IMG/VR virus record: IMGVR_UViG_3300021952_000031
Location: 1 to 29,077 of that record
Direction: 5' to 3' (one strand)
DNA from: a virus
Length of the DNA stretch: 29,077 bases
The stretch's first letter is position 1; each line of letters starts with the position of its first letter. The notes under the pieces are model-generated. The model had not been told where the DNA came from. It worked only from the letters and a program-made list of their open reading frames with translations, and did not search any database. Position numbers and translations under genes: made by a program. Positions 7,150 through 21,197 of the stretch are shown here, one piece after another.

Positions 7150-7151
7150 AA

Positions 7152-7415: not shown

Positions 7416-7417
7416 AA

Positions 7418-7816
7418 TTAATATTTATCTAATACATATTTTCTTTTAATATACCTTGCCCTTCTCATTAATGCACTATCTAAAGAACTACTTATATCTT
7501 CAAATGCTTTTCTCAAGCCTTCATTATATCCAAACAATTGGTTATTAGCCATAATAGCAATATCCAATCTTTCTTTCAAACTATCAATTATAGCTTTATT
7601 CCCAACTTTGCTAAGTAAGAATAGACTATCAATTTGATTTTTTTGAGTATTAATTTTTTCATTGTAGTTATAGAATTTAGTGTTAATATCTTCCGCTTGT
7701 GACTTCAATAATAATACGACCGTATCTCCATTAATTATTTTTGTTTTCGGATACGATTGGCTTAAGCTCAAATGGCTTACCAGCAACATCATCGTCATCA
7801 CCATTAATCTTTTCAT
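7418..7816 (-). CDS. Secreted spanin-like protein (lysis)
   Basis: 132 residues beginning with a clear Sec signal peptide: a short basic start, the hydrophobic core MVMTMMLLVSHLSL, and a likely cleavage after SLSQS (about residue 20). There is no lipobox cysteine. The mature part has NGDTVVLLLKSQAEDINTKF and then a long coiled-coil-like helix (about 45-115), ending in a basic tail. Its first 86 nt overlap the 3' end of the upstream TM/coiled-coil gene in another frame, the nested arrangement typical of Rz/Rz1 spanin pairs that bridge inner and outer membranes in Gram-negative lysis. The missing lipobox makes it atypical as an outer-membrane spanin. The signal peptide is clear; the lysis role is inferred from context. 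Confidence 0.72.
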   Translation of the reverse strand: MKRLMVMTMMLLVSHLSLSQSYPKTKIINGDTVVLLLKSQAEDINTKFYNYNEKINTQKNQIDSLFLLSKVGNKAIIDSLKERLDIAIMANNQLFGYNEGLRKAFEDISSSLDSALMRRARYIKRKYVLDKY

Positions 7817-8087
7817 TGAGTTTTATATTTTCTTGTTTTAATTCAGTTACTACAATTTTAAAACTATCGCAAGCTTTCTCTGCGTGCTTTAGCTCACCAA
7901 CACGTTTTTCTATAAACTGACTATTTTTTTTTACGGTTACGGTAACCATAGAGTCAATATTTATAGAATGCCATCCTTTAACTTCGTGAGATCGGATTGC
8001 TTTCTGTGCTGTTATAGAGGTCAACATTATTAATATTAACCCAAGTATAACAAGTGTAATTATTGCTGCTGCTTTATTTGGTTGCAT
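7731..8087 (-). CDS. TM plus coiled-coil protein, probable inner-membrane spanin
   Basis: 118 residues. An N-terminal membrane anchor covers about residues 7-28 (AAAIITLVILGLILIMLTSI), with a short N-in tail. A periplasmic part follows and ends in a coiled-coil-like region (KKNSQFIEKRVGELKHAEKA to about 95), with an acidic DDDD patch after it. This matches the layout of Rz-type i-spanins, which fuse inner and outer membranes at the end of infection. It overlaps the gene before it by 14 nt and shares 86 nt in a different frame with the signal-peptide gene after it. A role in lysis is supported by the neighbouring holin-like gene. Confidence 0.7.
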   Translation of the reverse strand: MQPNKAAAIITLVILGLILIMLTSITAQKAIRSHEVKGWHSINIDSMVTVTVKKNSQFIEKRVGELKHAEKACDSFKIVVTELKQENIKLNEKINGDDDDVAGKPFELKPIVSENKNN

Positions 8088-8376
8088 TGATAATTGCTTG
8101 TTGTGCTATGATGTTATAAATAATTGAGTCTTTCTTATCTACTGTCTTTTGAAGATTACGATTGTCTTCAATGCAGTTATCAATACCTTTGCTTGAACCA
8201 GCCTTCATATCTTTGTATACATAGATAATACCAAATACACAAAGGAAAGCTACCGCTGCTATTGGGTACTTTCTAAATTGATTAAAACTAACAGGTAGTT
8301 TAACAGCACCTGATGCTGTGTCTACTACCTTTTTAGTCGCTGTTTTTTTAGTTGCTGGTTTCTTCGCTTGAGTCAT
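8074..8376 (-). CDS. Single-pass membrane protein in the lysis cassette
   Basis: About 100 residues from the preferred start MTQAKKPATKK at 8376; a longer frame begins at 8421 but would add an unlikely 45 nt of overlap with the holin gene. It has a Lys/Ala/Thr-rich cytoplasmic tail (about 1-35), one membrane segment (about 40-58, YPIAAVAFLCVFGIIYVY), and a short extracytoplasmic helix with an N..LQKTVDKKDSIIYNIIAQQ pattern that may coil. It could be a second spanin subunit or a holin partner. It overlaps both neighbours, as lysis genes often do. Its specific role is not determined. Confidence 0.68.
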   Translation of the reverse strand: MTQAKKPATKKTATKKVVDTASGAVKLPVSFNQFRKYPIAAVAFLCVFGIIYVYKDMKAGSSKGIDNCIEDNRNLQKTVDKKDSIIYNIIAQQAIINATK

Positions 8377-8629
8377 CAGTTTTGTTTTTCTTTCCAAAAT
8401 ATCCATCAATAGCTTTTTCAACTACTTTCAACCCTAATAGAGCAGCAATCAATAAAGTTACTGAATATACTAAAGCCTCAGATGGAGCTACATGTTGCTC
8501 GCTAAAGCTATTATGGTATAGGGTTACACCCAATAGAATACCTAAGAATAAAGCAATCAAACGCTTCATTGAAGGAGCATCAGGTTTATCTAAAAAGAAA
8601 CCTGCTATAAAGTTTATTAATTTCTTCAT
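8348..8629 (-). CDS. Holin-like two-TM protein
   Basis: 93 residues with two hydrophobic segments. The first is about 22-40 (KRLIALFLGILLGVTLYH) and the second about 52-72 (ALVYSVTLLIAALLGLKVVEKA), followed by a charged, hydrophilic C-terminal tail (KKNKTDDSSEETSN). Small size, paired membrane helices, a charged tail and a place at the head of a group of spanin-like genes match phage holins, which form the membrane lesion that triggers lysis. The N-terminal MKKLINFIAGFFLDKP may be a third, amphipathic helix. It starts 1 nt from the stop of the upstream 117-residue gene. Confidence 0.7.
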   Translation of the reverse strand: MKKLINFIAGFFLDKPDAPSMKRLIALFLGILLGVTLYHNSFSEQHVAPSEALVYSVTLLIAALLGLKVVEKAIDGYFGKKNKTDDSSEETSN

Positions 8630-8982
8630 TATACAGTTGGTTTAACTACATCAATAACTACTACATTACCTGGATATAAAAATTCTAAAACATCTTGAAC
8701 TTCCATAATAGACAATGTTTCACAAGGGATAGTTGAATACTCATCTGGAGTAATATCACAAGTAATTAATTGATTGTAAGAAGATACAGTTGCTACTTCT
8801 GATTTTCCTGACTCATATGCTTCTTTGTTAACAAATGTAGAAATACCTATTTGAACAGGAATGCTACCTTTTTTTTCTTGGAATGATTGAGTTAAGAACT
8901 CATTGATTACAACTACTGCACCTGCAGGGATATTTAATCCTGTTGTTGTTAATACTTCTGCGTTGATTTGTAAAGCTTTCAT
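8629..8982 (-). CDS. Unknown tail-region protein, beta-rich
   Basis: 117 residues, predominantly beta by pattern (LQINAEVLTTTGLNIPAGAV, IPVQIGISTFVNKEAYESGK, LITCDITPDEYSTI). A small helical element near 93-102 (MEVQDVLEFLYPG) precedes a last strand, NVVVIDVVKP. There is no signal or membrane segment. It lies between the repeat-type tail fibre and the holin-like gene, 21 nt from the former, so it may be a minor tail or assembly protein. I do not recognise a family. Confidence 0.65.
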   Translation of the reverse strand: MKALQINAEVLTTTGLNIPAGAVVVINEFLTQSFQEKKGSIPVQIGISTFVNKEAYESGKSEVATVSSYNQLITCDITPDEYSTIPCETLSIMEVQDVLEFLYPGNVVVIDVVKPTV

Positions 8983-9003
8983 TTTATATGTTTAATTTAT
9001 AGA

Positions 9004-9630
9004 TTATAGATTTGTGTGGGTGTATTTATGCCAAGCTGTGCTATCCCAAAATGCTAATACATTTTGTGTAGTAGAATAAACATGTAAACCTGTAGCAGGA
9101 GCAACAATAGAAGTAATTTGAGCATCAGTCATTCTTGGAAATAAAAATCCACGAGTAGTAGATTCCATTTGAAATAATGCTGAAGCATCTACACTATTAA
9201 TACCCATTGTTACTTGACCTGTACCATACATATTAAATAAGTTAAGTGTATCAGCACTATTTCTTAATCTTAATACACTATCTGATGTAGTAGCACCACC
9301 TGCTTGAACATGAAGTCTAGCAGCAGGAGAAGATTGTCTAATACCTACATTACCATTATCTAATACAGTTAAGTTATTAATACCACCTGATGTAGTTACT
9401 CTCAAACCATAAGTTGCAGATGTTGTACCTGTACCTTGGATATATAATCTTGCAGCACCTGGTGTTGCAGTCCCAATACCAATGTTGCCTGTTGTTCCTA
9501 AAAATAGACCTGTTGAACCACCAACACCATCGGTCATTTCTTTATTTGTTGCTCCACCTATAGTATTATCAGCATATTTAAATAAACTCTGATATGTGGA
9601 TTGAATTGTATTACCTGTTAAAGTTGCCAT
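9004..9630 (-). CDS. Repeat-type tail fibre / receptor-binding protein
   Basis: 208 residues. The body carries two related units, NIGIGTATPGAARLYIQG (about 48-65) and NVGIRQSSPAARLHVQAGG (about 93-111). This GIGT-P…LHV repeat is common in Bacteroidota phage tail fibres and surface adhesins. The C-terminus (about 155-205) has TRGFLFPRMTDAQ…GLHVYSTTQNVLAFWDSTAW, the usual closing module of the same proteins. These are typically trimeric beta-structured shafts that end in the host-binding part. It lies between a decoration-like protein and the small 8629-8982 gene in the tail block. No peptidase-type chaperone domain is visible at the end. Confidence 0.82.
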   Translation of the reverse strand: MATLTGNTIQSTYQSLFKYADNTIGGATNKEMTDGVGGSTGLFLGTTGNIGIGTATPGAARLYIQGTGTTSATYGLRVTTSGGINNLTVLDNGNVGIRQSSPAARLHVQAGGATTSDSVLRLRNSADTLNLFNMYGTGQVTMGINSVDASALFQMESTTRGFLFPRMTDAQITSIVAPATGLHVYSTTQNVLAFWDSTAWHKYTHTNL

Positions 9631-9651
9631 TGTTTTATATTTTTAAAATTT

Positions 9652-10020
9652 TTAATCCCAATTAAATGCTGCATTTTCCCATTTCATTGTTGCGTTTTCC
9701 CAAAGCAAACCACTTGTAACTCCAGCTAATTCTTCAGCATTAATAAACAATTTAACTAAAGAACAAGTAGATGTACTTGATACATACTTTATTTGAATTG
9801 GTAAAAATTGTCCTGTAGTTACTCCAAAAAAAGTTACAATAGTATTTGTACTATCACCTGCCATTATCACACTTAAGTTACCAGCACCACCAACATAAAC
9901 CCCACCACTTCTTGTAATATATGTATTGTATAATATTTGATTAGGTCCTGTAATAGGACCCGCTATTACATCATAAGCTGTAATAGGTTGAACATTTATA
10001 TCTCTTAAAAAACTACTCAT
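9652..10020 (-). CDS. Spike-base / decoration-like protein (paralogue B)
   Basis: About 122 residues from MSSFLRDINVQPI at 10020; the frame allows MIMSS two codons earlier. The core has SGGVYVGGAGNLSVIMAGDS (about 35-54), VTFFGVTTGQFLPIQIKYVSST and a VKLF end. The same series of blocks occurs in the 11755-12030 protein, so the two are paralogues. Such a series (GG-YVGG-G, G-LP-I, STGTTAT-like) is seen in small phage spike-base or capsid-decoration proteins. It carries an extra C-terminal ~25 residues with two WENA-type repeats (LLWENATMKWENAAFNWD) that the paralogue lacks. It may attach a fibre or a spike to the virion. Its N-terminus overlaps the preceding gene by 8 nt. Confidence 0.72.
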   Translation of the reverse strand: MSSFLRDINVQPITAYDVIAGPITGPNQILYNTYITRSGGVYVGGAGNLSVIMAGDSTNTIVTFFGVTTGQFLPIQIKYVSSTSTCSLVKLFINAEELAGVTSGLLWENATMKWENAAFNWD

Positions 10021-10246
10021 TATCAAATGGGTTAAATGTTGATTCTTTTATATTTATATATCTACCTATACTATCTTTATCTAATAAAAATAAATAATCT
10101 GGTATTTGTATATTATCTAATTCTTGTTTGCTTATATAATACTTTTCATTTTTATTTATTACACTAAATAACCAATTACCATCAAATGTAAAATTTTTAT
10201 TATTTATAATATCTGCTATATTTTTATTTATTTCAAAATATTTCAT
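10013..10246 (-). CDS. Small unknown protein after the large tail-fibre gene
   Basis: 77 residues, rich in Asn, Ile, Lys and Asp. An N-terminal EINKNIADIINNK helix is followed by strand-like segments (FTFDGNWLFSVINK, KYYISKQELDN, YLFLLDKDSIGRYINIK). It abuts the tail-fibre stop at 10246 and overlaps the next start. A small gene directly after a tail fibre is often a fibre-assembly chaperone, but the sequence shows nothing specific. Its base composition is more AT-rich than its neighbours, as often seen in recently exchanged fibre modules. Confidence 0.6.
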   Translation of the reverse strand: MKYFEINKNIADIINNKNFTFDGNWLFSVINKNEKYYISKQELDNIQIPDYLFLLDKDSIGRYINIKESTFNPFDNE

Positions 10247-11751
10247 TACAAAGACCTTTTTAAATAGTTATTATAATTATTCATAATTCCAATTAATTGT
10301 CCAACTTCAAAATCAGCTAATATTTCTCCAATTGAAATACAACTTAATAACCTTGTAGAAGGACTGTAAATATTTATATTAATTCCATCAAATGTACCTG
10401 CTAATGCAGATATATATATTGGACAATCTGGAACCCCATTATATGGACTTGAAAAATTTGTTATAGCGCCATTTTTATATGTTTTTAAAGTTCCACTTGA
10501 AGTTCTTGTCATACCATATATCAAATTTGTTGGCAACCCGTCATTTAATACATCATTTGAACTGTTTATAGCAAAACGTGTAGAAATACTTGGATTAGTA
10601 TTTAATGGACTTATTGCAGTAAATGTATTTGCAAGAGGTCTTTGACTACCTATAGAATAATCATTTACTAAATCCGATTTGCCTTTTATGGATGCCCCAA
10701 CATAACTTCTATAATTTATGTTATCACAATATTGATTTGAATTTCTTTGAAAAATATGAGGATAATTTCCCCATGATTCCAAAGCTAAATTAATATTTGT
10801 ATTATATGCTCCACCTTGAGATGAAACTCCAGATGACCATTGTAACTCACTTCCCAATTGAATTAAATTATATGGACCTGTTGGATTCATAAAGTTTAAT
10901 CTATAGCATTGTGCATTTGCTGCATTAACATCTACGTTATAAGGAACTTTTTGATATGCCGTAGGTGCTCCAAAACCTGCATTAAATACATTTGAACTAT
11001 TACCTTCTATTTGTAACCCATATATATAAACCACTTCTCCATTAGTAGGTCCAGAATAAAAATTACCTGTTGAATTACCTATTAGCCAAACTCTATTAAG
11101 ATATACATAAAAAGCAAGGTAATTAGGATTAGTTGCTGATGCTTTTATATAAATAGAATAAGTCATAAATGCTGACTTAAACCATACTCTATAATAACCA
11201 TTAGGTGCAGCTATAACTCCTGATTCATTTACGTTTACTGTTGTTGTACTTATATTAAATGTAGTTGCATCAATAATAATGCCAACAGGGTTTGTTTGAC
11301 TTGCATTTGAATATGTTTCTGCATTAGAATTATAACCCATCATCCAATAAGCACCAACATTGTTCAAATAAACAGTTGAAGCGGCTGATACTGGAAAACT
11401 CATTTGATATGTTTTTGTACCACCATCAGGGTTAATTTCTGATGTACTAACCGAACCATTTAACCCATTAGCATTTACAATCATTCCCATACCTGCATCA
11501 GACATATCTTGAGTTGAACTACTTGTAGTCCAAACACCATTTCTATACTTTTGAATAAAAGGATAAAATGCTTTTATTTTAGATTGTATTGCTGAGTTCT
11601 GGATATCATCAGATAACAATTGAATTGCAGTTTGTTGCACAGGGTCAGTTATCCCACTTACTGCAATAAATGCAGAAGCCAATGTAGGTGGAACGTATGG
11701 ACCTTCAATAGCTATTGATGCGCCAGATGAATTTTGTATTCCTAAATACAT
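10246..11751 (-). CDS. Large tail-fibre-like / receptor-binding protein
   Basis: 501 residues, rich in Ser, Thr, Asn, Gly and Tyr, with low charge. The N-terminal ~60 residues (VPPTLASAFIAVSGITDPVQQ…SKIKAFYPFIQKY) resemble the virion-anchoring start of Bacteroidota phage fibre proteins. The centre (100-430) is beta-rich with many aromatics, consistent with a carbohydrate-binding jelly-roll or LamG-like module around 335-480. The end (RLLSCISIGEILADFEVGQL…MNNYNNYLKRSL) has the helical closing segment seen in these proteins, where numbering of residues in a ring-shaped oligomer is common. It is flanked on both sides by paralogous decoration-like genes, suggesting a virion module of fibre plus adapter. 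Confidence 0.75.
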   Translation of the reverse strand: MYLGIQNSSGASIAIEGPYVPPTLASAFIAVSGITDPVQQTAIQLLSDDIQNSAIQSKIKAFYPFIQKYRNGVWTTSSSTQDMSDAGMGMIVNANGLNGSVSTSEINPDGGTKTYQMSFPVSAASTVYLNNVGAYWMMGYNSNAETYSNASQTNPVGIIIDATTFNISTTTVNVNESGVIAAPNGYYRVWFKSAFMTYSIYIKASATNPNYLAFYVYLNRVWLIGNSTGNFYSGPTNGEVVYIYGLQIEGNSSNVFNAGFGAPTAYQKVPYNVDVNAANAQCYRLNFMNPTGPYNLIQLGSELQWSSGVSSQGGAYNTNINLALESWGNYPHIFQRNSNQYCDNINYRSYVGASIKGKSDLVNDYSIGSQRPLANTFTAISPLNTNPSISTRFAINSSNDVLNDGLPTNLIYGMTRTSSGTLKTYKNGAITNFSSPYNGVPDCPIYISALAGTFDGININIYSPSTRLLSCISIGEILADFEVGQLIGIMNNYNNYLKRSL

Positions 11752-11754
11752 AGA

Positions 11755-12030
11755 TTAGAATAAAGCTATTAAATTAGTTGCACTACTTGTGCTTGAAATA
11801 TAAACTACTTGAATAGGTAAAAATGTACCTGCCGTAACACCAACAAATGAAACTAAAGTTCCAGTTGAATCACCAGCCATCTTAACGACAACTGTTCCGC
11901 CACCACCAACATATATTCCACCTACTCTATCTAAAGTAGTATCAAAAGCTACTTGGTTTGTACCTGGCACAAATACTACAGGTTTAGCCACTATAGCTTG
12001 GTAATTTACGTCTCTTAAAAATGAAGCCAT
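11755..12030 (-). CDS. Spike-base / decoration-like protein (paralogue A)
   Basis: 91 residues: MASFLRDVNYQAIVAKPVV, then VGGIYVGGGGTVVVKMAGDS (about 36-55), VSFVGVTAGTFLPIQVVYIS and a SATNLIALF end. The pattern is shared block by block with the 9652-10020 protein, and fits the small beta-sandwich decoration/spike-base proteins widespread in phages. It ends at the point where the paralogue adds WENA repeats. It sits 3 nt before the large fibre gene and 32 nt after the RepL-like gene, with the GAGCGTATTATAA element in that spacer. Confidence 0.75.
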   Translation of the reverse strand: MASFLRDVNYQAIVAKPVVFVPGTNQVAFDTTLDRVGGIYVGGGGTVVVKMAGDSTGTLVSFVGVTAGTFLPIQVVYISSTSSATNLIALF

Positions 12031-12049
12031 TTTAAATTATTTTATAATG

Positions 12050-12062
12050 TTATAATACGCTC
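12050..12062 (-). promoter_or_regulatory. Recurring intergenic element GAGCGTATTATAA (copy 2)
   Basis: The 13-mer at 12062-12050 (minus) is identical to the copy before the portal. It sits in the short spacer after the RepL-like gene, 19 nt before the decoration-like gene start, and is followed by ATAATTTAAAA as at copy 1. It could separate the regulatory gene from the structural operon by giving those genes their own transcription start. Confidence 0.4.
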
Positions 12063-12464
12063 CTATATCCTCTTACCATTATAAAACATATTAGGGTTAA
12101 TCTCAAATACATTATCATCATCTGTAGTTTTAATCACATTTGCTTCTATAAGGCTTTTTAAACCTCTCATTACATCTCGCTTACTCTTATATCCACAGAA
12201 CTCTTTACACCGCTCAGGATGGAAAAAGAATTGGGTTTTTGACTTCTTTAGGTAACCCAATATATAGCATAACACCACAACACCACTTGACGGTAACTGA
12301 GACAAGGCAATAATGCCCTCACTATATAGCTTTATGAAAGGTAGGCTATCTAACTTCTTATGGGTTGATACATCACTCAACTCCATCACCTCACCTGTTG
12401 CATTATCTACAACAATTCTATCCTTACCTTTAGCCACTACTTGGCGAATTCCTTTTAATTCCAT
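12063..12464 (-). CDS. RepL-like winged-helix protein
   Basis: 133 residues from MELKGIRQVV at 12464 (a TTG further up is less likely). The N-terminal VVDNATGEVMELSDVSTHKK strand pair is followed by FIKLYSEGIIALSQLPSSGVVVLCYILGYL and a winged-helix body. It closes with DVMRGLKSLIEANVIKTT…DNVFEINPNMFYNGKR. This pattern, especially the VDNATGE opening and the INPN(M/I)F-NG end, matches the RepL family of plasmid replication proteins and their phage relatives. As the first gene of the minus-strand arm, next to the hairpin-rich region, it could start replication there or regulate the late genes. A minimal promoter lies directly upstream. Confidence 0.75.
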   Translation of the reverse strand: MELKGIRQVVAKGKDRIVVDNATGEVMELSDVSTHKKLDSLPFIKLYSEGIIALSQLPSSGVVVLCYILGYLKKSKTQFFFHPERCKEFCGYKSKRDVMRGLKSLIEANVIKTTDDDNVFEINPNMFYNGKRI

Positions 12465-12470
12465 AATATG

Positions 12471-12505
12471 CAAATATACACCTAATTTACAATTTTTGTC
12501 ACAAA
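12471..12505 (-). promoter_or_regulatory. Candidate minus-strand promoter for the RepL-like gene
   Basis: The minus-strand -7 box TATATTTG (12478-12471) matches TAnnTTTG, the same octamer as the 4859-4866 box. A TTTG (12505-12502) lies 23 nt upstream, slightly longer than the usual 19-21. The box ends 7 nt before the ATG at 12464, so transcription would start at or next to the ATG and the message would be leaderless or almost so. Confidence 0.5.
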
Positions 12506-13151
12506 AGTGGACAATTTATGTAAAATGCTATATTGAGAATCAACTACTTATAACTCTTTCTTTCTTAATATAAAGAAGAGATACATTTTTGATATAAAAA
12601 CATAGGGCTAAATTGAGGCAACCCTATGGCAAAAATCGAGGGGATTGATATTCTTGATGGGACACTATAATATATACGCTACGTTGTTTCCCTATGGGAA
12701 AATGACATTTCTTTACCGAGTAGGTTCTACGAACCTAATTTTTTTTTACTTTCAATTACATAGTAATTGACTTAATTGGTCACCTAACTTAATGTTTTAC
12801 ATTAATTATCTGCTGTAAGGTATTGATTTTCAATCAATGACAAGCACCTTCTTCAATTCCCTATCTTTAGGTAAAACCTAACTGCTTGAATTTCAGTAGT
12901 ATATGCGTGGGATACCAATGTTTTTTTTGTGTAGGTGCAATTCCTTCCTATGCGTGTGTGTGTAGTAGGTTCGCCAAACTATGCTTGTTTGTGCCACCGA
13001 AATCGTCGCAAACTCAATGCTGTATTGGTTTTCATCGTTATTGCCCCAATAGTAGAAACCAAAATTTTAACCAACAAAATCCAAACCTATGAAAACAGCA
13101 AACAATTCAAAAACAGCAAAAAATTCTTTAACAAACAAAAACAAACAAACT
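12479..13151. other. Divergent intergenic region, hairpin-rich (left part)
   Basis: No convincing gene is present. From 12601 on it holds a series of perfect inverted repeats. CATAGGG pairs across 12601-12628 (14-nt loop) and TTTCCC-TAT-GGGAAA covers 12687-12701. TAGGTTC-TAC-GAACCTA is at 12721-12737, TCAATTAC-ATA-GTAATTGA at 12752-12770, TTAATGT-TTT-ACATTAA at 12789-12805 and ATTGATT-TTC-AATCAAT at 12822-12838. TTAGGT-AAA-ACCTAA (12867-12881) lies inside an outer stem CAAGCA (12841-12846)/TGCTTG (12883-12888). T-runs occur at 12739-12747 and 12921-12928. Small overlapping plus-strand frames at 12886-13192 have no coding character. Confidence 0.8.
12721..12747 (+). terminator. Rho-independent terminator-like hairpin
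   Basis: A perfect 7-bp stem TAGGTTC/GAACCTA with triloop TAC (12721-12737) is followed after one A by nine T residues (12739-12747). There is no annotated plus-strand gene upstream, so if it works it would end a short RNA starting in 12.5-12.7 kb, or attenuate rightward transcription from the central region. Confidence 0.5.
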
Positions 13152-13706
13152 ATGAAAAAACAAATTGCACCTGCAAGCGAAAAAACTACTAAAGTAGTTA
13201 GCGAAAAAACTACTAAAGTAGTTAGTCAATCTTTCTTAATTCCTACTGAAGATAAGAAATCTTATCTTGACAAGAAAAAAGCATTTGTAAATGCTTTTAA
13301 AGATGAAATTGGTGGTTTATCTTCAATGATTAAATTTGCCTTAACCAATACCAAAGGTATTGAATATGTAAATTGCTTCGTTGATTTTAATAAAAATCAT
13401 TGGATTAATCCTAACAATCCAAAGGATTTAAAAGTAGGAATTGACAATTTAAAATCAATTATGCCTGAAGAAATAAGATTTCTTACCCAAAGAATTGATA
13501 ACGAAACAATAGTTTGTTTTGACAAAGATGGCAAACCAATGTTAAGACAAAGATTTTCAATTTCTCAATTTGAAAAATGTTTCAAATTGTTTTATGAAAA
13601 TTTAGCAAAACAAAATGAAATTGCTAAAGCAAATGTTAAACAAACAAAAGGTGCTAAAGCACCTGTTAAAAATCAAATTAGCAATAGCAAAAAAGTAAAA
13701 GCATAA
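13152..13706 (+). CDS. Lys-rich protein with internal palindromic repeats
   Basis: 184 residues from MKKQIAPASE at 13152, which follows a typical aaactATG leader; a frame from 13089 would add 21 Asn/Lys/Thr-rich residues that look like leader sequence. Near the N-terminus the octapeptide SEKTTKVV is repeated in tandem, encoded by an exact 24-bp repeat at 13176-13199 and 13200-13223. The middle is a folded alpha/beta-looking part (LDKKKAFVNAFKDEIGGLSS, EYVNCFVDFNKNHW, VCFDKDGKPMLRQRF, FEKCFKLFYENLAK). The end is a Lys/Ala/Asn-rich tail. No family is recognised. It is the only gene inside the hairpin-rich locus and carries at least ten perfect inverted repeats in its own coding sequence, often centred on an AAA lysine codon. 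It ends in a strong terminator, so it is probably transcribed alone. It may bind nucleic acid; this is inference from its basic tail. Confidence 0.78.
   Translation: MKKQIAPASEKTTKVVSEKTTKVVSQSFLIPTEDKKSYLDKKKAFVNAFKDEIGGLSSMIKFALTNTKGIEYVNCFVDFNKNHWINPNNPKDLKVGIDNLKSIMPEEIRFLTQRIDNETIVCFDKDGKPMLRQRFSISQFEKCFKLFYENLAKQNEIAKANVKQTKGAKAPVKNQISNSKKVKA
13176..13223 (+). repeat. 24-bp tandem repeat, two copies, each a hairpin
   Basis: Two exact in-frame copies encode SEKTTKVV twice. Each contains the inverted repeat AACTACT-AA-AGTAGTT. The copies are adjacent with no spacer, consistent with slippage or template switching at a hairpin. Confidence 0.9.
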
Positions 13707-13726
13707 ATGCTTTATTGAATAAGATT

Positions 13727-13754
13727 AGGGGGCAATGCCCCCTTTTCTTATTTT
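13727..13754 (+). terminator. Strong intrinsic terminator
   Basis: Stem AGGGGGC/GCCCCCT (7 bp) with triloop AAT spans 13727-13743 and runs into TTTTCTTATTTT (T-tract 13743-13754). It lies 20 nt after the stop of the 13152-13706 gene. It is the best terminator in the window. Confidence 0.85.
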
Positions 13755-14515
13755 ACCTTAGGAATAAACTTTAGTTTATTGCCATAGTTTTCGGTAACTA
13801 ATAAGGTACTTATTATTAAGTCCAAACCCTTCGCAATGTTGGGAGTAGTGCAATACTACAAAATTGGATAGTCGTTCATAAATGCACCAATGCACCCGTT
13901 AGTTAAATTTAGGCATGCCCGAAGCAAAAGTAGGGACTAAATGGATATTGCAACGAGTATGAATATGCTCGGTTTATGTACTATGTTCATCCACTAACAT
14001 AGTCGGTTTGTAGTCGCAATGATTAAGCAAGTCGTAAAGTGCAAGCATGCCAAAGGTATGCCTATGCCGAATGGATAGCAAAAGTAAATTGGCAATTCAA
14101 TTCCTTTGCTAAATGCACCTACTATGGCAATTGCCGAGCAATTCGGTGAGCGTTACCCATAGGTGACATGAGCAATTCAGTGAATTTATCAATTACTTTG
14201 TATCCATAGATTAGAACGAAGAAACGGATAACATTATATATTTCCATATATTACAGGCTTTATGCCAATGTTCGTTACCCTATTGTTAGTCGTAAGATTG
14301 TAACCCAAAAACAGATGTTGTAAAGGTTAGGGCGTTTTGTAATCTATGGGGCAAAATTGACATGGGATTTCACCCAATTATACTATGCTGTGGAAATGAT
14401 TTTAAGTAAGGATAGGGTAATTCAGAATTGTTGGGCAAACTATGCCCAAGGGACTTGTTTTACAAGTGGTAACATTCGTTTATCCCCCCTATTCTCTCAC
14501 CAAATTCCCTAAACA
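13755..14515. other. Long non-coding region with hairpins and repeated words
   Basis: About 760 nt without a credible gene. Inverted repeats include AATAAACT/AGTTTATT (13763-13780), TAATAAG-GTA-CTTATTA (13799-13815), GTAGT/ACTAC (13845-13859) and CGAGTAT-GAAT-ATGCTCG (13954-13971). Further on are ACTATGTT/AACATAGT (13980-14003), GCATGCC-AAA-GGTATGC (14045-14061), GGCAATTGCC (14126-14135), ATATAT-TTCC-ATATAT (14236-14251), TTGGGCA-AACTA-TGCCCAA (14431-14449) and ACTTGT-TTT-ACAAGT (14453-14467). Several words recur: GCATGCC (13913, 14045), GCAAAAGTA (13924, 14078), AAATGCACC (13880, 14111) and the 14-mer GAGCAATTC(G/A)GTGA (14136, 14170). This could be a replication origin or a structured RNA; nothing decides between them. 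Confidence 0.8.
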
Positions 14516-14803
14516 ATGAGTAACAAATTCAAAAAACAATTGCAGGAATTAGACCAATTAATGAAAGTTGCCGAGCAAGTACGGAAAGAAACCCGTATGG
14601 AACAAGCAAGGATGAGAGCCCAAGGTGTGACCAAGCTCGTAGGAATTCTGGATAAGGTGGCACCTATCCTAATTGAACCAATGCGAAACAATGATATTCG
14701 CCTCAATGCTTCTGTCCATAATGCCTTAAGGAATAACCAATACAAAACCAAAGGTAAGAAGATAGATGTATTGAATAATTTAGAAACTTTAAACTTTGTC
14801 TAA
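14516..14803 (+). CDS. Small unknown helical protein
   Basis: 95 residues. Residues 1-45 are a strongly charged helix with coiled-coil periodicity (KFKKQLQELDQLMKVAEQVR). A central hydrophobic part (VTKLVGILDKVAPILIEPM, about 38-56) and an Asn-rich C-terminal part (NDIRLNASVHNALRNNQ) follow. It contains no metal ligands or membrane segment. It is the first gene after the central non-coding region on the plus strand and begins at a clear ATG 49 nt after the last hairpin. It could form a dimer through the first helix. No family recognised. Confidence 0.65.
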   Translation: MSNKFKKQLQELDQLMKVAEQVRKETRMEQARMRAQGVTKLVGILDKVAPILIEPMRNNDIRLNASVHNALRNNQYKTKGKKIDVLNNLETLNFV

Positions 14804-14822
14804 CCCTGTAAATAAAAACCCT

Positions 14823-15017
14823 ATGAAAATTGTTGTAATTCTTTTGGGCATAATTGCCCTTATGTTGTCAATCAAAGGCGTGTCTCTGATGCAGAACGCA
14901 AAGGATATGATTGAGTTAGGTATGGGCTTTATCGCCATATCAGAAGGATTGTGTTTAATTGTAGTAATGAGAGCAATTGAGCGTAACCGAGAGAGGATAA
15001 TAGATTTATTTGAGTAA
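14823..15017 (+). CDS. Small two-TM membrane protein
   Basis: 64 residues from the ATG at 14823, which follows the usual ccctATG leader. A longer reading would need a TTG at 14796. Two hydrophobic segments are seen, about 2-20 (KIVVILLGIIALMLSIKGV) and 34-50 (GFIAISEGLCLIVVMRAI), followed by a basic/acidic tail (ERNRERIIDLFE). With the next two genes it makes a cluster of tiny membrane-targeted proteins at the start of the early arm. Such clusters often alter the host envelope or block superinfection, but that is inference. Confidence 0.65.
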   Translation: MKIVVILLGIIALMLSIKGVSLMQNAKDMIELGMGFIAISEGLCLIVVMRAIERNRERIIDLFE

Positions 15018-15029
15018 TTTCTTTCTTTC

Positions 15030-15052
15030 TCACTATCATCTTTCTTTCTTTT
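15030..15052 (+). repeat. Shared leader TCACTATCATCTTTCTT (copy 1)
   Basis: The 17-mer TCACTATCATCTTTCTT begins at 15030 and leads into a pyrimidine run ending at the ATG of 15053. The same 17-mer is found at 21198-21214, also directly upstream of a small membrane protein. The shared pyrimidine-rich leader may be a common translation or regulatory signal, or a trace of duplication. Confidence 0.7.
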
Positions 15053-15157
15053 ATGGAACAATTTATCATTGTTTTGTCGCTAACAGGTATCATTTTGTGC
15101 CTGTTTTTTTATGTCGCTACCGAAACGACCGATTGGGAAGGTAATGACGATTTTTAA
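15053..15157 (+). CDS. 34-residue single-TM peptide
   Basis: The frame is MEQFIIVLSLTGIILCLFFY, then VATETTDWEGNDDF and a stop. Residues 4-22 form one membrane helix, followed by a short acidic tail that would lie outside or inside depending on orientation; the lack of basic residues before the helix gives no clear prediction. It follows the leader repeat at 15030 and precedes a lipoprotein-like gene by 20 nt. Short frames can occur by chance; the hydrophobic/acidic layout and its place in a run of tiny membrane genes argue for a real one. Confidence 0.5.
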   Translation: MEQFIIVLSLTGIILCLFFYVATETTDWEGNDDF

Positions 15158-15177
15158 ACCTCAAAAACCCCTTTTTT

Positions 15178-15324
15178 ATGGCAAAATGTGCCCTTTTTGT
15201 ACTGATTTTAATGATTTTTGCGTCCTGTACTGCTCAAAAATGCGTATGGGGTAAGGGCGATGGCATGAATTCCCATTGTCAAAACAAATTTTCTTATCAT
15301 AAACCCCCCTTTAATTTTAATTAG
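15178..15324 (+). CDS. Small putative lipoprotein
   Basis: 48 residues: MAKCALFVLILMIFASCTAQ, then KCVWGKGDGMNSHCQ and an aromatic tail. A basic start, a 13-residue hydrophobic core, and FASC at residues 14-17 make a plausible signal-peptidase-II lipobox with Cys17 as the lipidated residue. The mature peptide would be only ~32 residues with two further cysteines. Tiny phage lipoproteins are known either as outer-membrane spanins (Rz1) or as superinfection-exclusion factors. Since this gene is in the early arm, far from the holin, the second seems more likely. It begins 20 nt after the 34-residue TM gene. Confidence 0.5.
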   Translation: MAKCALFVLILMIFASCTAQKCVWGKGDGMNSHCQNKFSYHKPPFNFN

Positions 15325-15327
15325 AAT

Positions 15328-15615
15328 ATGGAAACTACTTGTGAAAAATTACCCAAATTCCGACCATTGAGCGAACCTGTATCGTTTATTGAAAACATAT
15401 TAGGCAAGGACTTTGATTGGGAAGATTTAAACCCTATTCATTTAGAGGTAGATGAAGAAAATAGCACCTGCTATCAAGTTTATGAGTATTTTGGTACATA
15501 TGTACTTGAAATAGAGCAGGCCGAAGGTGGTGCTTGGGTAGGTCATAACAATTGTTGGTACTGGCAAATAGACCACAATACTACTTGGACAGAAATTTCA
15601 TTAACTAACGCTTAA
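15328..15615 (+). CDS. Small acidic unknown protein
   Basis: 95 residues, acidic, with many aromatic residues in the second half (CYQVYEYFGTYVLEIEQ, GGAWVGHNNCWYWQIDHNTTW). It has three cysteines without a zinc-binding arrangement. The N-terminal LPKFRPLSEPVSFIENILGKDFDWEDLNP is probably helical. It begins 4 nt after the lipoprotein-like gene, so they are co-translated. Small acidic early phage proteins are often inhibitors of host enzymes, but no family is recognised here. Confidence 0.62.
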   Translation: METTCEKLPKFRPLSEPVSFIENILGKDFDWEDLNPIHLEVDEENSTCYQVYEYFGTYVLEIEQAEGGAWVGHNNCWYWQIDHNTTWTEISLTNA

Positions 15616-15626
15616 AATAAATCAAT

Positions 15627-15806
15627 ATGGAAAACAAGTACAAACAAATTGAAGATTTAGGACCTGAATACGATTCAGCAGGATTTAGGGAAGAAGATAG
15701 AATTGTAAATGGGCAATACATGGTTATTTGTGAACATAGTTTCATAGATATAAACAACGATGGTTTAGAAAAATGTCGCTTCTGTAACCAACTAAACGAA
15801 GAATAA
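15627..15806 (+). CDS. 59-residue protein with C-x-H…C-x2-C cluster
   Basis: The start MENKYKQIEDLGPEYDSAGF at 15627 follows the stop of the previous gene by 11 nt and an atcaatATG leader. Residues 35-53 contain CEH and, later, CRFC (ICEHSFIDINNDGLEKCRFC), the ligands of a small zinc knuckle. The first 30 residues are acidic. It may be a small zinc-stabilised binding protein. It is placed before the longer gene at 15856. Confidence 0.55.
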   Translation: MENKYKQIEDLGPEYDSAGFREEDRIVNGQYMVICEHSFIDINNDGLEKCRFCNQLNEE

Positions 15807-15810
15807 ACAT

Positions 15811-15858
15811 TTCACTCAATTATTAATCATTAATTAACCCTTAAAACAAAACAAGATG
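15811..15858 (+). repeat. Repeated gene leader (copy 1)
   Basis: A 48-nt stretch ending at the ATG of the 15856 gene recurs at 16287-16334 with its last 30 nt identical and about five differences in the first 18. The shared core contains TTAATTAACCC followed by TTAAAACAAAACAAG. It suggests duplication of a leader plus gene start, since the two downstream proteins share their N-termini. Confidence 0.8.
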
Positions 15859-16092
15859 GAACAAAAAACAATTTATCAAGTAGTAATGTGGGACTCTTAT
15901 CTTGGAAATTCAGGACTTGAATTTAGAGATTCTGTACAAAGTCATTGGGAGTCAATAGAAGACGCATATAAAATGGCGTTAAGTTTACAGCGAGAATATA
16001 CCTATCAAGAAACAACAGAAGGTACTGATGAAGAATTACAAACCTATTTTGTTGTACAGAAAATTATTGTAAACCCTCATAAAATAAATTAA
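15856..16092 (+). CDS. Small unknown protein, paralogue of the 16332 gene
   Basis: 78 residues. The start MEQKTIYQVVMWDSYLGNSG is similar to METKTIYSVMYDT-type start in the 16332 gene, and an identical leader precedes both, so they are probably products of duplication that have diverged strongly. The pattern is a strand (TIYQVVMWD), a helix (SIEDAYKMALSLQREYTYQ) and a last strand (YFVVQKIIVNP), possibly a small alpha/beta fold. No catalytic motif. Confidence 0.62.
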   Translation: MEQKTIYQVVMWDSYLGNSGLEFRDSVQSHWESIEDAYKMALSLQREYTYQETTEGTDEELQTYFVVQKIIVNPHKIN

Positions 16093-16093
16093 T

Positions 16094-16309
16094 ATGGAAT
16101 TAGAAAGCTACTACATGCAAATTGATATCTCAAAAGTTGCATATGAATTGGCCGAAGATAGGTTCACAGAACTTATACAATCAGGCAAGATTAAAAACCC
16201 TTATGTCCAATTAAGCAACGGAATGAGGTATTCAGATGAAGCTCAAGCAGAATTTGAAGGCTTATACGAATATTTTTGGAACACTATTCACTCAATTGCT
16301 CATGATTAA
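16094..16309 (+). CDS. Small acidic unknown protein
   Basis: 71 residues, mainly helical by pattern (YMQIDISKVAYELAEDRFTE, EAQAEFEGLYEYFWNTIHS). The first ATG follows the previous stop by one nucleotide. Its last codons form the start of the second leader copy, meaning that the repeat includes coding sequence here but non-coding sequence at copy 1. No membrane segment or known domain. Confidence 0.6.
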   Translation: MELESYYMQIDISKVAYELAEDRFTELIQSGKIKNPYVQLSNGMRYSDEAQAEFEGLYEYFWNTIHSIAHD

Positions 16310-16334
16310 TTAACCCTTAAAACAAAACAAGATG
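16287..16334 (+). repeat. Repeated gene leader (copy 2)
   Basis: This 48-nt copy ends at the ATG of the 16332 gene; its 3' 30 nt are identical to 15829-15858. The 5' part lies within the end of the 16094-16309 gene. Confidence 0.8.
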
Positions 16335-16682
16335 CAAGAAACTAAAACAATTTATTCAGTAATGTATGATACAGGAGAACAATACGACGGTCAAGACACT
16401 CACATCTACAAAATGTTTGACAACCCTATCCAAGCCTCAAGGTGTGTCACTTGGCTATATGACCAAGTAATAAAGCACGTTACTGGTGTTATACATTTGC
16501 AAAGGGATATTCAACAATTAGAATTAGATTATGGTCAAGACCATTCAGATTTAATTAATATAAAAGAACATGAGTTGTTAGATTTGTATGCAAAACCACC
16601 TTTAAAAGGTTTCAACCCTGATTACAATGTAATTTTTATTGAAGAAAATAAATTAGAAACAATTTTTATACCTCAAAACTAA
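16332..16682 (+). CDS. Small unknown protein, paralogue of the 15856 gene
   Basis: 116 residues. The N-terminal TKTIYSVMYDTGEQYDGQDT corresponds to the start of the 15856 protein. A helical middle (IQASRCVTWLYDQVIKHVTG, LQRDIQQLELDYGQDHS) then replaces the shorter helix of the paralogue. The C-terminus ends in strands (YNVIFIEENKLETIFIP). It is soluble. A role in host takeover is possible from its place in the early operon, but no motif supports it. Confidence 0.62.
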   Translation: MQETKTIYSVMYDTGEQYDGQDTHIYKMFDNPIQASRCVTWLYDQVIKHVTGVIHLQRDIQQLELDYGQDHSDLINIKEHELLDLYAKPPLKGFNPDYNVIFIEENKLETIFIPQN

Positions 16683-16686
16683 AACT

Positions 16687-17046
16687 ATGGGACGCTACTA
16701 TTCAGGAGACATCAACGGAAAATTTTGGTTCGCTGTGCAATCATCTACAGCTGCCGACAGATTTGGTTCACGTTTTTACGAGCCAAACTATGTGTGCTAT
16801 TCATTCACAACAGATGAATTGCCAGCCTGCGAGGCAGAGGTACTTGACATTGAGCAATTTTTAGGTGACAAGATTGCCATATTAGACAAGTTCTTTAGTG
16901 AAGCAGGTGGCTACAGAGATGATGATTTGTACAAACTTGGTATTACTAATTATGATTTGAAAGAATATGCCGACCTATTACTCGGCAGAGAGATACGAGA
17001 TTGTATCAAAGAAAATGGTGAATGTAATTTTGACGCAGAACTTTAA
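16687..17046 (+). CDS. Unknown phage protein (MGRYYSGDINGKFWFAVQSS type)
   Basis: 119 residues. The N-terminal MGRYYSGDINGKFWFAVQSS followed by AADRFG is a distinctive sequence that I associate with unassigned proteins of several phages and mobile elements, but I know of no proven role. The rest is acidic and helical (DELPACEAEVLDIEQFLGDK…NYDLKEYADLLLGREIRDC). It is likely small and globular, possibly with an RNA- or protein-mimic surface given its many acidic residues. It is 4 nt from the preceding gene. Confidence 0.65.
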   Translation: MGRYYSGDINGKFWFAVQSSTAADRFGSRFYEPNYVCYSFTTDELPACEAEVLDIEQFLGDKIAILDKFFSEAGGYRDDDLYKLGITNYDLKEYADLLLGREIRDCIKENGECNFDAEL

Positions 17047-17073
17047 TCTTTAAACCCTATAAAACAAAACCCT

Positions 17074-18297
17074 ATGACAGCAGAACAATTAATTATCGGT
17101 AACAAGTATGTGCCTTTCCAAAAGACAGCAGGTGAATCATTTGAAGATTCATTCTTTATTAGAAACAATTATGTTTTTTTGTACTATCGTGGCACAGACC
17201 CATCGTCTGGTAGACATACATTTGGTGGTAGCGAAAGAGGTTCAGGTGGAGGATTTTATAACCCTGGAGATGTATACGAATACATTGAAGAGCACAATGG
17301 GATACGAAGAGGTATGGCTGTAACTATTATAAACGATGGATATACCTTCTCAACTTATGCAGATATGTTTGAGCAATTAAGATTTGCAAACAAAAGAAGA
17401 AATGACGCTTGGGATAATGATACAGAAGGCGTAGTGTTTGCTATTTCTAAAGTGCCTGATGGCCGAGTTGTATTCGCAGTAAGACATAGTAGTGGCAAGG
17501 AATGTTTGATTGAAGCAGCAGGTGTTAGATTAGTAGATGATGTAGTAGATTGCTTGCCTACCAAATGGTTTATTGAAATCAATGAACTCAACAAAGCTGA
17601 CTTAAAAGAGTGGAGAGGATTTAATATTACTCAAGATTATGGCTACCTATTGTCTGACATACCAGAAGGAAAAAGTCACAGTTTGCCTAACAACTGTGGA
17701 TACTATGTTAGAACGCTTGAAGAATACCCTGAATACAGATTAATAACCGATGAACAATTTTATAACCAAGTAATAAATAAACCTATGCCACAAATAACAC
17801 AAGAAACATTACCAGAAACACCACAAGATGCACCACAAGATGCACCACAAGAAACAAAACAATACCCTAAGACACCTGAGGGTTTATATCAAATGACCGT
17901 AGACTTACTTGCCTTTGAAGTAGGTGATACAGTTAGAGTAACCCATAAGGTTCCTTCCCACTATAATGGTTGGCAAAACAATTGGTCTGATAGTATGGAC
18001 GTTTTCATTGGCAGAGAGTACAAGATAGAAGGAATTTTTGAAACAGGTTTTCAATTAGAATATACTGATAGTTACAAATTCCCAATCTACAGCTTAGAGC
18101 TTGTCAAAAGAAAAGAAACTCTTAGTACCCACACATTATGTTTTACTGGGGCAAGTGGAAGTATGGAAGATGGCGGTGAATTTGTACACTTTAATAGCCC
18201 AATCACAAAGTTATCAGGTAATGATGTGTATTGGTTGGTTCAGTTGTTAATAATGGCAGGTGTTGATAAAAAATATAGTGTATCTACAAAGATATAA
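17074..18297 (+). CDS. Unknown two-part protein with a repeated C-terminal domain
   Basis: 407 residues. The N-terminal part (1-235) has a Gly/Ser-rich loop (SGRHTFGGSERGSGGGF, about 44-60) and strand-rich parts around VVFAISKVPDGRVVFAVRHS. A low-complexity linker (about 245-268) repeats QDAPQDAPQETKQ. The C-terminal domain (about 285-345) is VGDTVRVTHKVPSHYNGWQN…SMDVFIGREYKIEGI, a small beta domain also found in the 18351-18803 protein, which thus looks like a duplicated and separated copy. No catalytic motif is recognised. The linker's perfect GATGCACCACAA repeat in the DNA (about 17827-17850) suggests slippage. Confidence 0.7.
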   Translation: MTAEQLIIGNKYVPFQKTAGESFEDSFFIRNNYVFLYYRGTDPSSGRHTFGGSERGSGGGFYNPGDVYEYIEEHNGIRRGMAVTIINDGYTFSTYADMFEQLRFANKRRNDAWDNDTEGVVFAISKVPDGRVVFAVRHSSGKECLIEAAGVRLVDDVVDCLPTKWFIEINELNKADLKEWRGFNITQDYGYLLSDIPEGKSHSLPNNCGYYVRTLEEYPEYRLITDEQFYNQVINKPMPQITQETLPETPQDAPQDAPQETKQYPKTPEGLYQMTVDLLAFEVGDTVRVTHKVPSHYNGWQNNWSDSMDVFIGREYKIEGIFETGFQLEYTDSYKFPIYSLELVKRKETLSTHTLCFTGASGSMEDGGEFVHFNSPITKLSGNDVYWLVQLLIMAGVDKKYSVSTKI

Positions 18298-18350
18298 AGA
18301 TAAATGTAATTATAAATTCATATTTTCTCACTAACAAAACAATATAAATT

Positions 18351-18803
18351 ATGACAAACAAAGATTTATTACAGATGCATTTTGATGTACTTAACTTACA
18401 AGTAGGTGATGTTGTACAAATAACCCATAAAGTACCTGCTTATTACTTAGGTGTAAGCTATGGGTGGAATGATTGTATGGATAGGTATGTAGGTAGAACT
18501 TTCCAAGTAAAAGAAATAAACGAAAATCATATTGGTCTTCATGAAGATGAACATTGGTGTTGGCATCCTGCTTGTCTCAAAGTGGTATCTCGTAAGCCTA
18601 AAGATGTAACGATTACCTTTGGGTTAACAGAAGATGGCATTAACCCTGAGTATGTGGCAAAGATTAATGCACAAACTGCATTTGTATACAAGAACGATGG
18701 AATGGAATTGTTATGTGACATAGATTTTGATACCGTTGAGATGATATTCAAACATATGAATAAGTTGTCAGGTAAAATGCTTCTAACAAGAGGCGAAGAA
18801 TAA
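18351..18803 (+). CDS. Unknown protein sharing a domain with the 17074 gene
   Basis: 150 residues. Residues 15-65 (LQVGDVVQITHKVPAYYLGV…DCMDRYVGRTFQVKEI) are clearly homologous to residues 285-345 of the previous protein, with the same VGD-V-THKVP, a W-(N/S)D-MD core and VGR/IGR. The C-terminal half (VTITFGLTEDGINPEYVAKI, LLCDIDFDTVEMIFKHMNKL) is different. The shared small beta domain could be a ligand-binding or protein-binding module. 53 nt separate it from the upstream gene. Confidence 0.68.
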   Translation: MTNKDLLQMHFDVLNLQVGDVVQITHKVPAYYLGVSYGWNDCMDRYVGRTFQVKEINENHIGLHEDEHWCWHPACLKVVSRKPKDVTITFGLTEDGINPEYVAKINAQTAFVYKNDGMELLCDIDFDTVEMIFKHMNKLSGKMLLTRGEE

Positions 18804-18835
18804 TTTGGTAAATTGTAATTTATTTCTTAACTTTA
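18804..18835 (+). promoter_or_regulatory. Candidate Bacteroidota-type promoter
   Basis: TTTG (18804-18807), a 20-nt spacer and TAACTTTA (18828-18835), one mismatch from TAnnTTTG. It ends 12 nt before the ATG at 18848, so the leader would be very short. It would give the 18848-21138 gene pair its own transcription. Confidence 0.4.
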
Positions 18836-18847
18836 AATACAACAATC

Positions 18848-20119
18848 ATGAACGCAAAACCGATTTACTCCAACTCATTCAAGAAGTTCTTGTCTGAGTC
18901 AGACAGCCGCATCTGTAAAATCTTACACAGGCTTGACCTTAAAGATAGACCATCGTCTATCGTAACAACTAAGGATATTAACTATATAACCAATCGTAAA
19001 GAAGGGTTAATCAGTTATCTTCCAAGCAATCGTCCTCACATTATGAACGAAGACTATACTTGGTCTCGTCAAGGTAGAGAGTCAGGCCGTGCAGGTAGAG
19101 TTATCCGTAAGTTATTTGATAGCAGGTTTATATCTCGCTATCTAACTGACAAAGACTTTGAGGACTTTACTAATCTGTATCGCTCCGAGTTCAATGGTCA
19201 AGGGTTGCAATTTGTTCTCCGTGATGCTGACCAAATTCCAGATGTGTATGATATGGATATCTGTGAGGAAGGTTCACTCGGTAATAGCTGCATGAATGGC
19301 GACGGTTGCTATATGGATATGTATTCACACAATAGTGACATGCAAATACTTACATTAGTTAATACAAATGGCAAGTTGTGTGGTCGTGCTTTAGTATGGC
19401 ACAATGTTATTGCCAATGACGACCGTGATAATCGTATAACAGTTATGGATAGGATTTATACATCCGATGACTTTATGGCTGATATGTTTGTTCGTTATGC
19501 AAATGAGAATAAATGGTACTACAAATTTAACTACAAAAGTGGTGGCAATATACAGCAGTTCTTTAACCCTGATGGTGATACGGTTCATTTAGTTCTTAAG
19601 GTTAATCTTGACACCGACTTTGGAAGTTATCCATATATTGACACATTGTGTTATGGTGGTGATGGTTTCATAACAAACGATGATGATGCAAGTAGTGCTC
19701 ATTATTGTTACCAATATACAGGTGGCGATAGATGTGAAAGATATTGGGACGAAATTGATGACTGTAGAATTGATAACAGCGAAGATGTAGTTCACATTGA
19801 AAATGGTAGATATAGAAGACACAATACTCATATTGATAATGCTGTAAGTATCAATGGTGAGTGGTGGTGGTGCGATGACGAAGACATTATTGAGGTTGAT
19901 GGTACTTGGTATGAAAAAAGTGATGACGAAATAGTTGAGGTAGATGGAGATTGGTATCGTACTGACGATGAAAGTATTGCTTATTGCGAATGCGATTATG
20001 AATATCACCTCACCGAAGATTTAGTGTACCACGATAGTAGAGGTTGGATACTTCTTGAGAATGCCGTGAAGGTAAAAGATGTTATCTACCACAAAGATGA
20101 GGTAGAGGAATTAGTATAA
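18848..20119 (+). CDS. Phage protein with SCM/GRALVW/VMDRIY motifs and acidic repeat tail
   Basis: 423 residues. The central part (about 135-265) contains GSLGNSCMNGDGCYMDMYSH, LVNTNGKLCGRALVW and VMDRIYTSDDFMADMFVRYA, a set of blocks I have seen in large unassigned phage proteins, but whose biochemical role I cannot name. The C-terminal ~115 residues form a run of short acidic units of about 18-20 residues with a repeating pattern GxWYxxDDExIxEV (NGEWWWCDDEDIIEV, DGTWYEKSDDEIVEV, DGDWYRTDDESIAYC). These could form stacked beta hairpins or bind divalent metal. It is followed 23 nt later by the M20-type peptidase. No signal peptide. Confidence 0.75.
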   Translation: MNAKPIYSNSFKKFLSESDSRICKILHRLDLKDRPSSIVTTKDINYITNRKEGLISYLPSNRPHIMNEDYTWSRQGRESGRAGRVIRKLFDSRFISRYLTDKDFEDFTNLYRSEFNGQGLQFVLRDADQIPDVYDMDICEEGSLGNSCMNGDGCYMDMYSHNSDMQILTLVNTNGKLCGRALVWHNVIANDDRDNRITVMDRIYTSDDFMADMFVRYANENKWYYKFNYKSGGNIQQFFNPDGDTVHLVLKVNLDTDFGSYPYIDTLCYGGDGFITNDDDASSAHYCYQYTGGDRCERYWDEIDDCRIDNSEDVVHIENGRYRRHNTHIDNAVSINGEWWWCDDEDIIEVDGTWYEKSDDEIVEVDGDWYRTDDESIAYCECDYEYHLTEDLVYHDSRGWILLENAVKVKDVIYHKDEVEELV

Positions 20120-20142
20120 TTTAACTTATAAAAAACAAAACA

Positions 20143-21138: not shown

Positions 21139-21162
21139 AGATGTTTTGTTTTGATAAGAGTC

Positions 21163-21195
21163 GGGGGTTTGATTGTTTTCCCCCTTCTCTTTTTC
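21163..21195 (+). terminator. Intrinsic terminator after the M20-type gene
   Basis: GGGGG (21163-21167) pairs with CCCCC (21180-21184) around a 12-nt loop, followed by TTCTCTTTTTC. It lies 24 nt after the peptidase stop and before the next leader repeat. Confidence 0.65.
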
Positions 21196-21197
21196 TA

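Follow-up and report, generated by a model that had tools for sequence, protein, structure and literature searches.

A dense array of short perfect hairpins with tiny loops across a gene and its non-coding flanks in two phages

Why should a short stretch of phage DNA, coding and non-coding alike, be packed with small perfect inverted repeats that share an architecture and hardly any sequence? The question is raised by the 29,077-bp IMG/VR record IMGVR_UViG_3300021952_000031, analysed here over its whole length (the window). The phage is flavobacterial-type, its TerL being ~30% identical to TerL of Flavobacterium and Cellulophaga podoviruses. Nothing quite like this array of mini-hairpins has been described.

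Density and extent of the hairpin array

The saturation claimed by the original prediction is real: positions 12601-14467 hold 18 perfect inverted repeats with arms of at least 7 bp and loops of 2-5 nt, while 300 dinucleotide-preserving shuffles gave a mean of 1.09 and a maximum of 5. For arms of at least 8 bp, 5 repeats were observed vs 0.30 in the shuffles. All hairpins quoted in the prediction were recovered at the positions it gave, and its impression that such density occurs nowhere else in the window was borne out, as both the left part (1-12473; 6 repeats vs 5.3 expected) and the right part (14516-29077; 7 vs 5.0) are at chance level under the arm ≥7, loop 2-5 limits. The extent up to 14.47 kb was overstated, however. 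Counting arms of at least 6 bp and loops of 2-3 nt, the dense stretch 12721-13820 has 13-17 hairpins per kb, while 12474-12720 has 4 and 13821-14515 only 2.9, a mild enrichment. The dense core covers the 3' half of the upstream non-coding DNA, the whole of a 205-aa gene and 110 bp beyond it (Table 1). The arms were said to be all unlike, which holds for nearly all of them; one pair is identical, having arisen by a 24-bp tandem duplication. Apart from this pair, and from a repeated AGTTGCTAAAGCAACT in the second phage described below, the arms share no sequence, which excludes a repeat family or CRISPR, as predicted.

Table 1. Coordinates of the hairpin locus, its members and adjoining features in the window
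Feature	Position	Strand	Remarks
Hairpin-rich locus	12601..14467	.	Bounds of the original prediction; dense core 12687-13820 (~1.1 kb)
RepL-family protein	12063..12473	-	PF05732; borders the locus on the left and points away from it
Terminator-like hairpin	12601-12628	-	One of three such
5' non-coding array, six hairpins	12687..12881	.	Centres every 32-44 nt; members 12687-12701, 12721-12737, 12752-12770, 12789-12805, 12822-12838, 12867-12881
TAGGTTC-TAC-GAACCTA, then T9	12721..12747	+	Hairpin 12721-12737; intrinsic-terminator-like
205-aa gene	13089..13706	+	Ten hairpins inside (arm ≥6, loop 2-4)
AACTACT-AA-AGTAGTT, two identical copies	13184..13223	.	13184-13199 and 13208-13223
AAAAGCATTT-GT-AAATGCTTTT	13277..13298	.	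Arm 10
CAATTTGAAA-AATG-TTTCAAATTG	13566..13589	.	Arm 10
AGGTGCT-AA-AGCACCT	13649..13664	.	
AGGGGGC-AAT-GCCCCCT	13727..13743	.	Directly 3' of the gene's stop codon
Conserved 48-bp non-coding block	14408..14455	+	89.6% identical to L037:7198-7245

A second phage contig, L037 (IMGVR_UViG_3300044825_001453), is syntenic with the window, and most of its alignable flanking DNA is 80-96% identical. At the matching place it carries 21 repeats (arm ≥7) in 2 kb, which is denser than the window, and its array likewise spans the upstream non-coding DNA, the homologous gene and the downstream non-coding DNA. The locus itself is hardly alignable between the two phages, and in a codon-level map almost no L037 hairpin occupies the position of a window hairpin. 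Since the layout is the same and the hairpins are different, it is the layout and not the sequence that is conserved. Where the original prediction had allowed that a relative might keep the region and lose the pairing, the opposite was seen, because the pairing of L037 is dense and built from different sequences. The locus is a part of a larger divergence island (window ~8.6-15.3 kb, including tail genes, the RepL gene and the hairpin locus), so the turnover of hairpins is not datable against the flanking genes, which are mostly 80-96% identical outside the island.

Within the gene, the array draws on synonymous codon choice. In 1000 synonymous shuffles per gene, preserving protein and codon usage, hairpins with arms of at least 7 bp numbered 1.00 on average for the window gene and 1.05 for its L037 homologue, vs 9 and 13 observed, and 0/1000 shuffles reached the observed value in either case. 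The encoded protein is basic, with a Lys-rich disordered N-terminus, and is 37% identical between the two phages. It had no match in Pfam, PHROGs, NCBIfam, PADLOC or PDB sequences, and its AlphaFold2 model (mean pLDDT 49) is too poor for use. Scans of bacterial and archaeal genomes and of 395 Bacteroidota genomes yielded for this gene a single weak match (L078), which was put down to chance because of its internal stops.

The architecture is known from two phages, both metagenomic. None of 69 other related loci (1.10 Mb) has it, their best 1,867-bp stretch containing 5 repeats (arm ≥7, loop 2-4) vs 16 in the window and 19 in L037. DNA and protein searches found no match among 50,697 phage records, and scans of viral collections with the 205-aa gene, the RepL gene, the downstream gene, TerL, two early genes and the conserved non-coding block as queries found no carrier of the locus except L037. 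A chance origin is ruled out by the dinucleotide shuffles, the synonymous codon shuffles and the 1.1 Mb of related phage DNA.

Anatomy of the hairpins

With arms of at least 6 bp, the excess lies entirely in 2-nt and 3-nt loops (7 + 11 hairpins in the window, 12 + 18 in L037), and loops of 0-1 and of more than 5 nt are near background at both loci. The pair closing the loop is 5'-pyrimidine...purine-3' in 43/48 hairpins of the two loci (Y..R 43:5); elsewhere in these two contigs the ratio is 16:17, and other phages have 102:131. The arms of 6-11 bp are perfect and end sharply, as pairing past their ends (0.26-0.29) equals the background. Hairpins with one mismatch are not in excess: measured against scaled counts from the rest of each contig, there are 8 vs ~10 expected in the window and 14 vs ~8 in L037. 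If hairpins were created and then decayed neutrally, each locus should carry 12-14 extra one-mismatch hairpins, while 0 and ~5 were seen (P=0.0007 and 0.04 for the deficit). Since these decayed forms are missing, simple neutral decay is ruled out.

The distances between hairpin centres cluster in the range of 21-40 nt and, as a further group, at 66-70, and the gaps are more even than under random placement (pooled P=0.00055); the corresponding period of ~33 nt was spotted after the fact. Neither helical phasing at 10.5 bp nor codon phasing of the spacing was significant. Hairpin bases are poorer in GC (0.24 in the window, 0.30 in L037) than the spacers (0.36 and 0.39), so the arms are neither plain copies of local sequence nor tuned for RNA-like stability.

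DNA structure, RNA structure or mutational by-product

In both phages, and in coding and non-coding DNA alike, the pairing is kept as Watson–Crick complementarity with a tiny oriented loop, irrespective of sequence. The lack of a mismatch excess, the lack of wobble enrichment in the coding part, the AT-rich stems and the even spacing argue for upkeep at the DNA level, and we suppose that a process recognising folded single DNA strands maintains it. The reading that we tentatively put ahead of the others, while rating it somewhat below an even chance, is that selection maintains the array of short DNA hairpins for their Watson–Crick pairing and tiny loop rather than for their sequence. Under this reading, the hairpins would act in single-stranded DNA of the locus or after extrusion from supercoiled DNA, each of them being recognised by its structure and bound by a protein independently of the others; the array could be bound by the basic protein that the 205-aa gene encodes. 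The upkeep might be due to selection, if the hairpins are required by such a protein, or to template switching, if the replication machinery keeps making and correcting them. Arm perfection and positional turnover are compatible with both, and the two may act together; the even spacing and the AT-rich arms favour selection. Against the whole reading counts the weakness of hairpins with AT-rich stems of 6-7 bp. A bolder formulation, to which we give less credence, is that the locus represents a new cis-acting DNA element, namely an evenly spaced, sequence-independent mini-hairpin array (arms of 6-11 bp, loops of 2-3 nt, Y...R closing) lying across a gene and its flanks, which a phage or host protein would read as DNA structure in the single-stranded state while the encoded protein evolves around it.

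A structured RNA, one of the options of the original prediction, would mean that the rightward transcript (leader, gene and trailer) is folded into many small hairpins serving for protection, regulation or protein binding. Predicted RNA folding lies indeed far below shuffles in all parts except the 5' flank of the window, with z-scores of -7.5 (window) and -10.5 (L037) for the coding parts, and the plus strand folds slightly better in 5/6 parts. The minus strand is, however, nearly as extreme in the coding parts (z -5.7 and -9.1), since palindromes make both strands fold alike. The wobble pairs are more telling. In selected RNA structure, G.U pairs are expected to be common, especially in genes, where they ease the compromise with coding. 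The coding parts contain 1 stem with G.T vs 6 with A.C, while the stems with wobbles in the non-coding flanks count 8 with G.T and 0 with A.C, favouring the plus strand as RNA; taken over both loci together, wobble stems do not rise above background. Some of the flank hairpins therefore probably act in a rightward RNA. The RNA option is also favoured by the resemblance of the hairpins at 12721 and 13727 to terminators and by the conserved block of non-coding DNA; the hairpin of this block (TTGGGCA-AACTA-TGCCCAA) contains one G.T pair in L037. For the gene, the missing wobble excess, together with the tiny loops (2-3 nt and not 4 or more) and the AT-rich stems, favours pairing at the DNA level over RNA. 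Rfam searches at gathering and at permissive thresholds gave nothing above threshold. As an explanation of the whole array, we consider structured RNA rather unlikely.

Slightly less probable still is a functionless template-switch hotspot, in which replication stalls or passes through single-stranded DNA, the nascent strand folds back, and hairpins are created and continually perfected. Template switching at quasipalindromes is a known source of short inverted repeats and also makes them perfect (PMC8794818, PMC7202029), and it is able both to create and to maintain hairpins (PMC8794818). The perfect arms, the lack of imperfect repeats and the turnover of positions reproduce the pattern of nematomorph mitochondria, for which conversion was proposed (PMC6649704), and the locus lies in an island of divergence, being hardly alignable between flanks that are 80-96% identical to L037. 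A template-switch hotspot was among the options of the original prediction; a purely neutral one does not fit the even spacing and the scarcity of one-mismatch hairpins (0 and ~5 extra against the 12-14 predicted per locus), so an added correction step is needed. The arms are also more AT-rich than their surroundings, which is not expected of a copy, and an arm-by-arm comparison of the window with L037 did not clearly point to copying of either arm, neither being clearly more conserved. Hairpin promoters of the N4 type, used by a virion RNA polymerase and multiplied into an array, resemble our hairpins in size and closing rule, as the early promoters of N4 have stems of 5-7 bp and 3-nt loops closed by 5'-C..G-3', and are extruded by supercoiling (PMC4496689). 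We consider this explanation very unlikely: the required loop of the C-G(R)A-G type occurs in only ~3 of roughly 50 hairpins, tens of sites within one gene are implausible as promoters, and ~37 kb of phage sequence, from an incomplete genome, contains no giant polymerase gene. The least credible explanation is an assembly or sequencing artefact, or ordinary terminators combined with chance. Three hairpins (12601-12628, 12721-12737 and 13727-13743) do look like ordinary terminators, that at 13727-13743 resembling, by its T-rich tails both ways, a bidirectional one, and a sister contig ends at the edge of the locus. However, T-runs accompany only ~3 of ~20 hairpins, the codon test (0/1000) speaks against such an origin, and the same architecture recurs with different sequences in a contig from another metagenome.

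The sister contig (L002, 20.8 kb, from another record) is 99.94% identical to window 1-12566 and holds portal and SU10-type capsid genes past the window's left end; its position 1 corresponds to window 12566, precisely at the border of the hairpin locus, which looks like an assembly break caused by strain variation or by the hairpins. At the place that matches window 12721, L037 has another hairpin, accompanied by a T-run and ACTNTCAA (5638-5661).

Replication setting and comparison with known systems

The gene at the left edge of the locus, which the original prediction had called RepL-like, matches RepL (PF05732) with 31.4 bits, above the gathering cut-off of 20.3, and has counterparts in 151 plasmid records, most of them annotated RepL among the matches listed. 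The divergent centre suspected there was confirmed, too: genes run leftward on the left of the locus and rightward on its right, and the cumulative GC skew has its minimum at the locus, which divergent transcription alone can produce. The divergent centre and the skew minimum, combined with the RepL neighbour, suggest that replication is initiated in this zone and that single-stranded DNA occurs there. With less confidence than for the other steps, we infer that the setting of the hairpins may be replication initiation at this centre, driven by the adjacent RepL-type protein. The origin may lie elsewhere, since a second initiator-like protein is encoded at 23215-23760.

In RepL plasmids of the pSN2 family, replication follows the rolling-circle mode with a single-stranded DNA stage and makes use of a single-strand origin (PMC5703833). 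Similar to these replicons, the phage locus adjoins a RepL-family gene and has a gene for a small basic protein nearby. Fifteen RepL plasmids share with it the closing bias and a weak excess of similar hairpins (71 vs 24.4 expected, Y..R 52:19), while five other small plasmids lacked this excess, with 15 hairpins in 22 kb and Y..R 7:8. In the RepL plasmids, the excess also extends to loops of 4-5 nt and no dense array is formed. Because the sample is small, the hosts are unmatched and the excess reaches loops of 4-5 nt, this comparison is a lead and not a proof. The 2.4-kb RepL plasmid pZF002 (NZ_CP129424.1) has 10 small-loop hairpins vs ~1 expected, 9/10 of them Y..R. A RepL homologue on a plasmid-like contig (L079), found in the scans of bacterial and archaeal and of 395 Bacteroidota genomes, is accompanied by no hairpins.

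The nearest described phenomenon is represented by the coding palindromes of Nematomorpha mitochondria, which are perfect and intragenic, show no excess of imperfect forms, are rapidly gained and lost, and have no known function (PMC6649704). The phage repeats are similarly perfect, occur inside a gene beyond what its protein dictates (0/1000 shuffles) and lack an excess of imperfect forms. However, the nematomorph palindromes reach 284 bp and are scattered over the mitochondrial genome (PMC6649704), whereas the phage hairpins have arms of 6-11 bp, loops of 2-3 nt and an even spacing, and are confined to one locus, including non-coding flanks, of a dsDNA phage. Template-switch hairpins are known as single events, in contrast to the dense, evenly spaced locus with its closing-pair rule. 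The N4 promoters are likewise small-stem hairpins in a dsDNA phage and work as extruded DNA (PMC4496689), but they occupy few sites and have conserved loop and stem bases, while the phage arrays consist of ~20-34 unlike sequences. A genome-wide survey of perfect inverted repeats that includes viral genomes, in which spacers of 0 or 4 are preferred, used a minimum arm of 10 (PMC13155455) and would therefore miss nearly all hairpins described here.

In a dsDNA phage, a gene that keeps its protein while carrying a hairpin every ~33 nt shows selection, or repair, acting on DNA structure and not on sequence. Should the hairpins be functional, they represent a class of elements invisible to sequence-based annotation; if they are products of template switching, the locus offers a natural hotspot for directly measuring the mutational origin and upkeep of hairpins. 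The loop of 2-3 nt combined with the Y...R closing rule provides a simple search signature for other genomes.

Several observations concern the neighbourhood of the locus. Just 5' of the RepL-like gene, inverted repeats occur in both phages (window 12491-12515, L037:5436-5455), possibly the operator of this gene. The 48-bp block at 14408-14455 lies upstream of the gene at 14516, in surroundings otherwise unalignable between the two phages. Further to the right, small early genes (MEQKTIY...) share a similar start sequence of ~40-56 bp (window 15829-15882 and 16305-16355; L037:8268-8323, 8634-8687 and 9012-9049), representing a gene family with a common 5' end. A 423-aa protein, function not assigned (18848-20119), has homologues in Pervagoviridae and 7-14 matching places in each of the huge uncultured phages (635-735 kb). 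Finally, a phage-encoded sigma-factor-like protein (phrog_351; 26516-27457) is located directly before the genes for Erf and exonuclease VIII.
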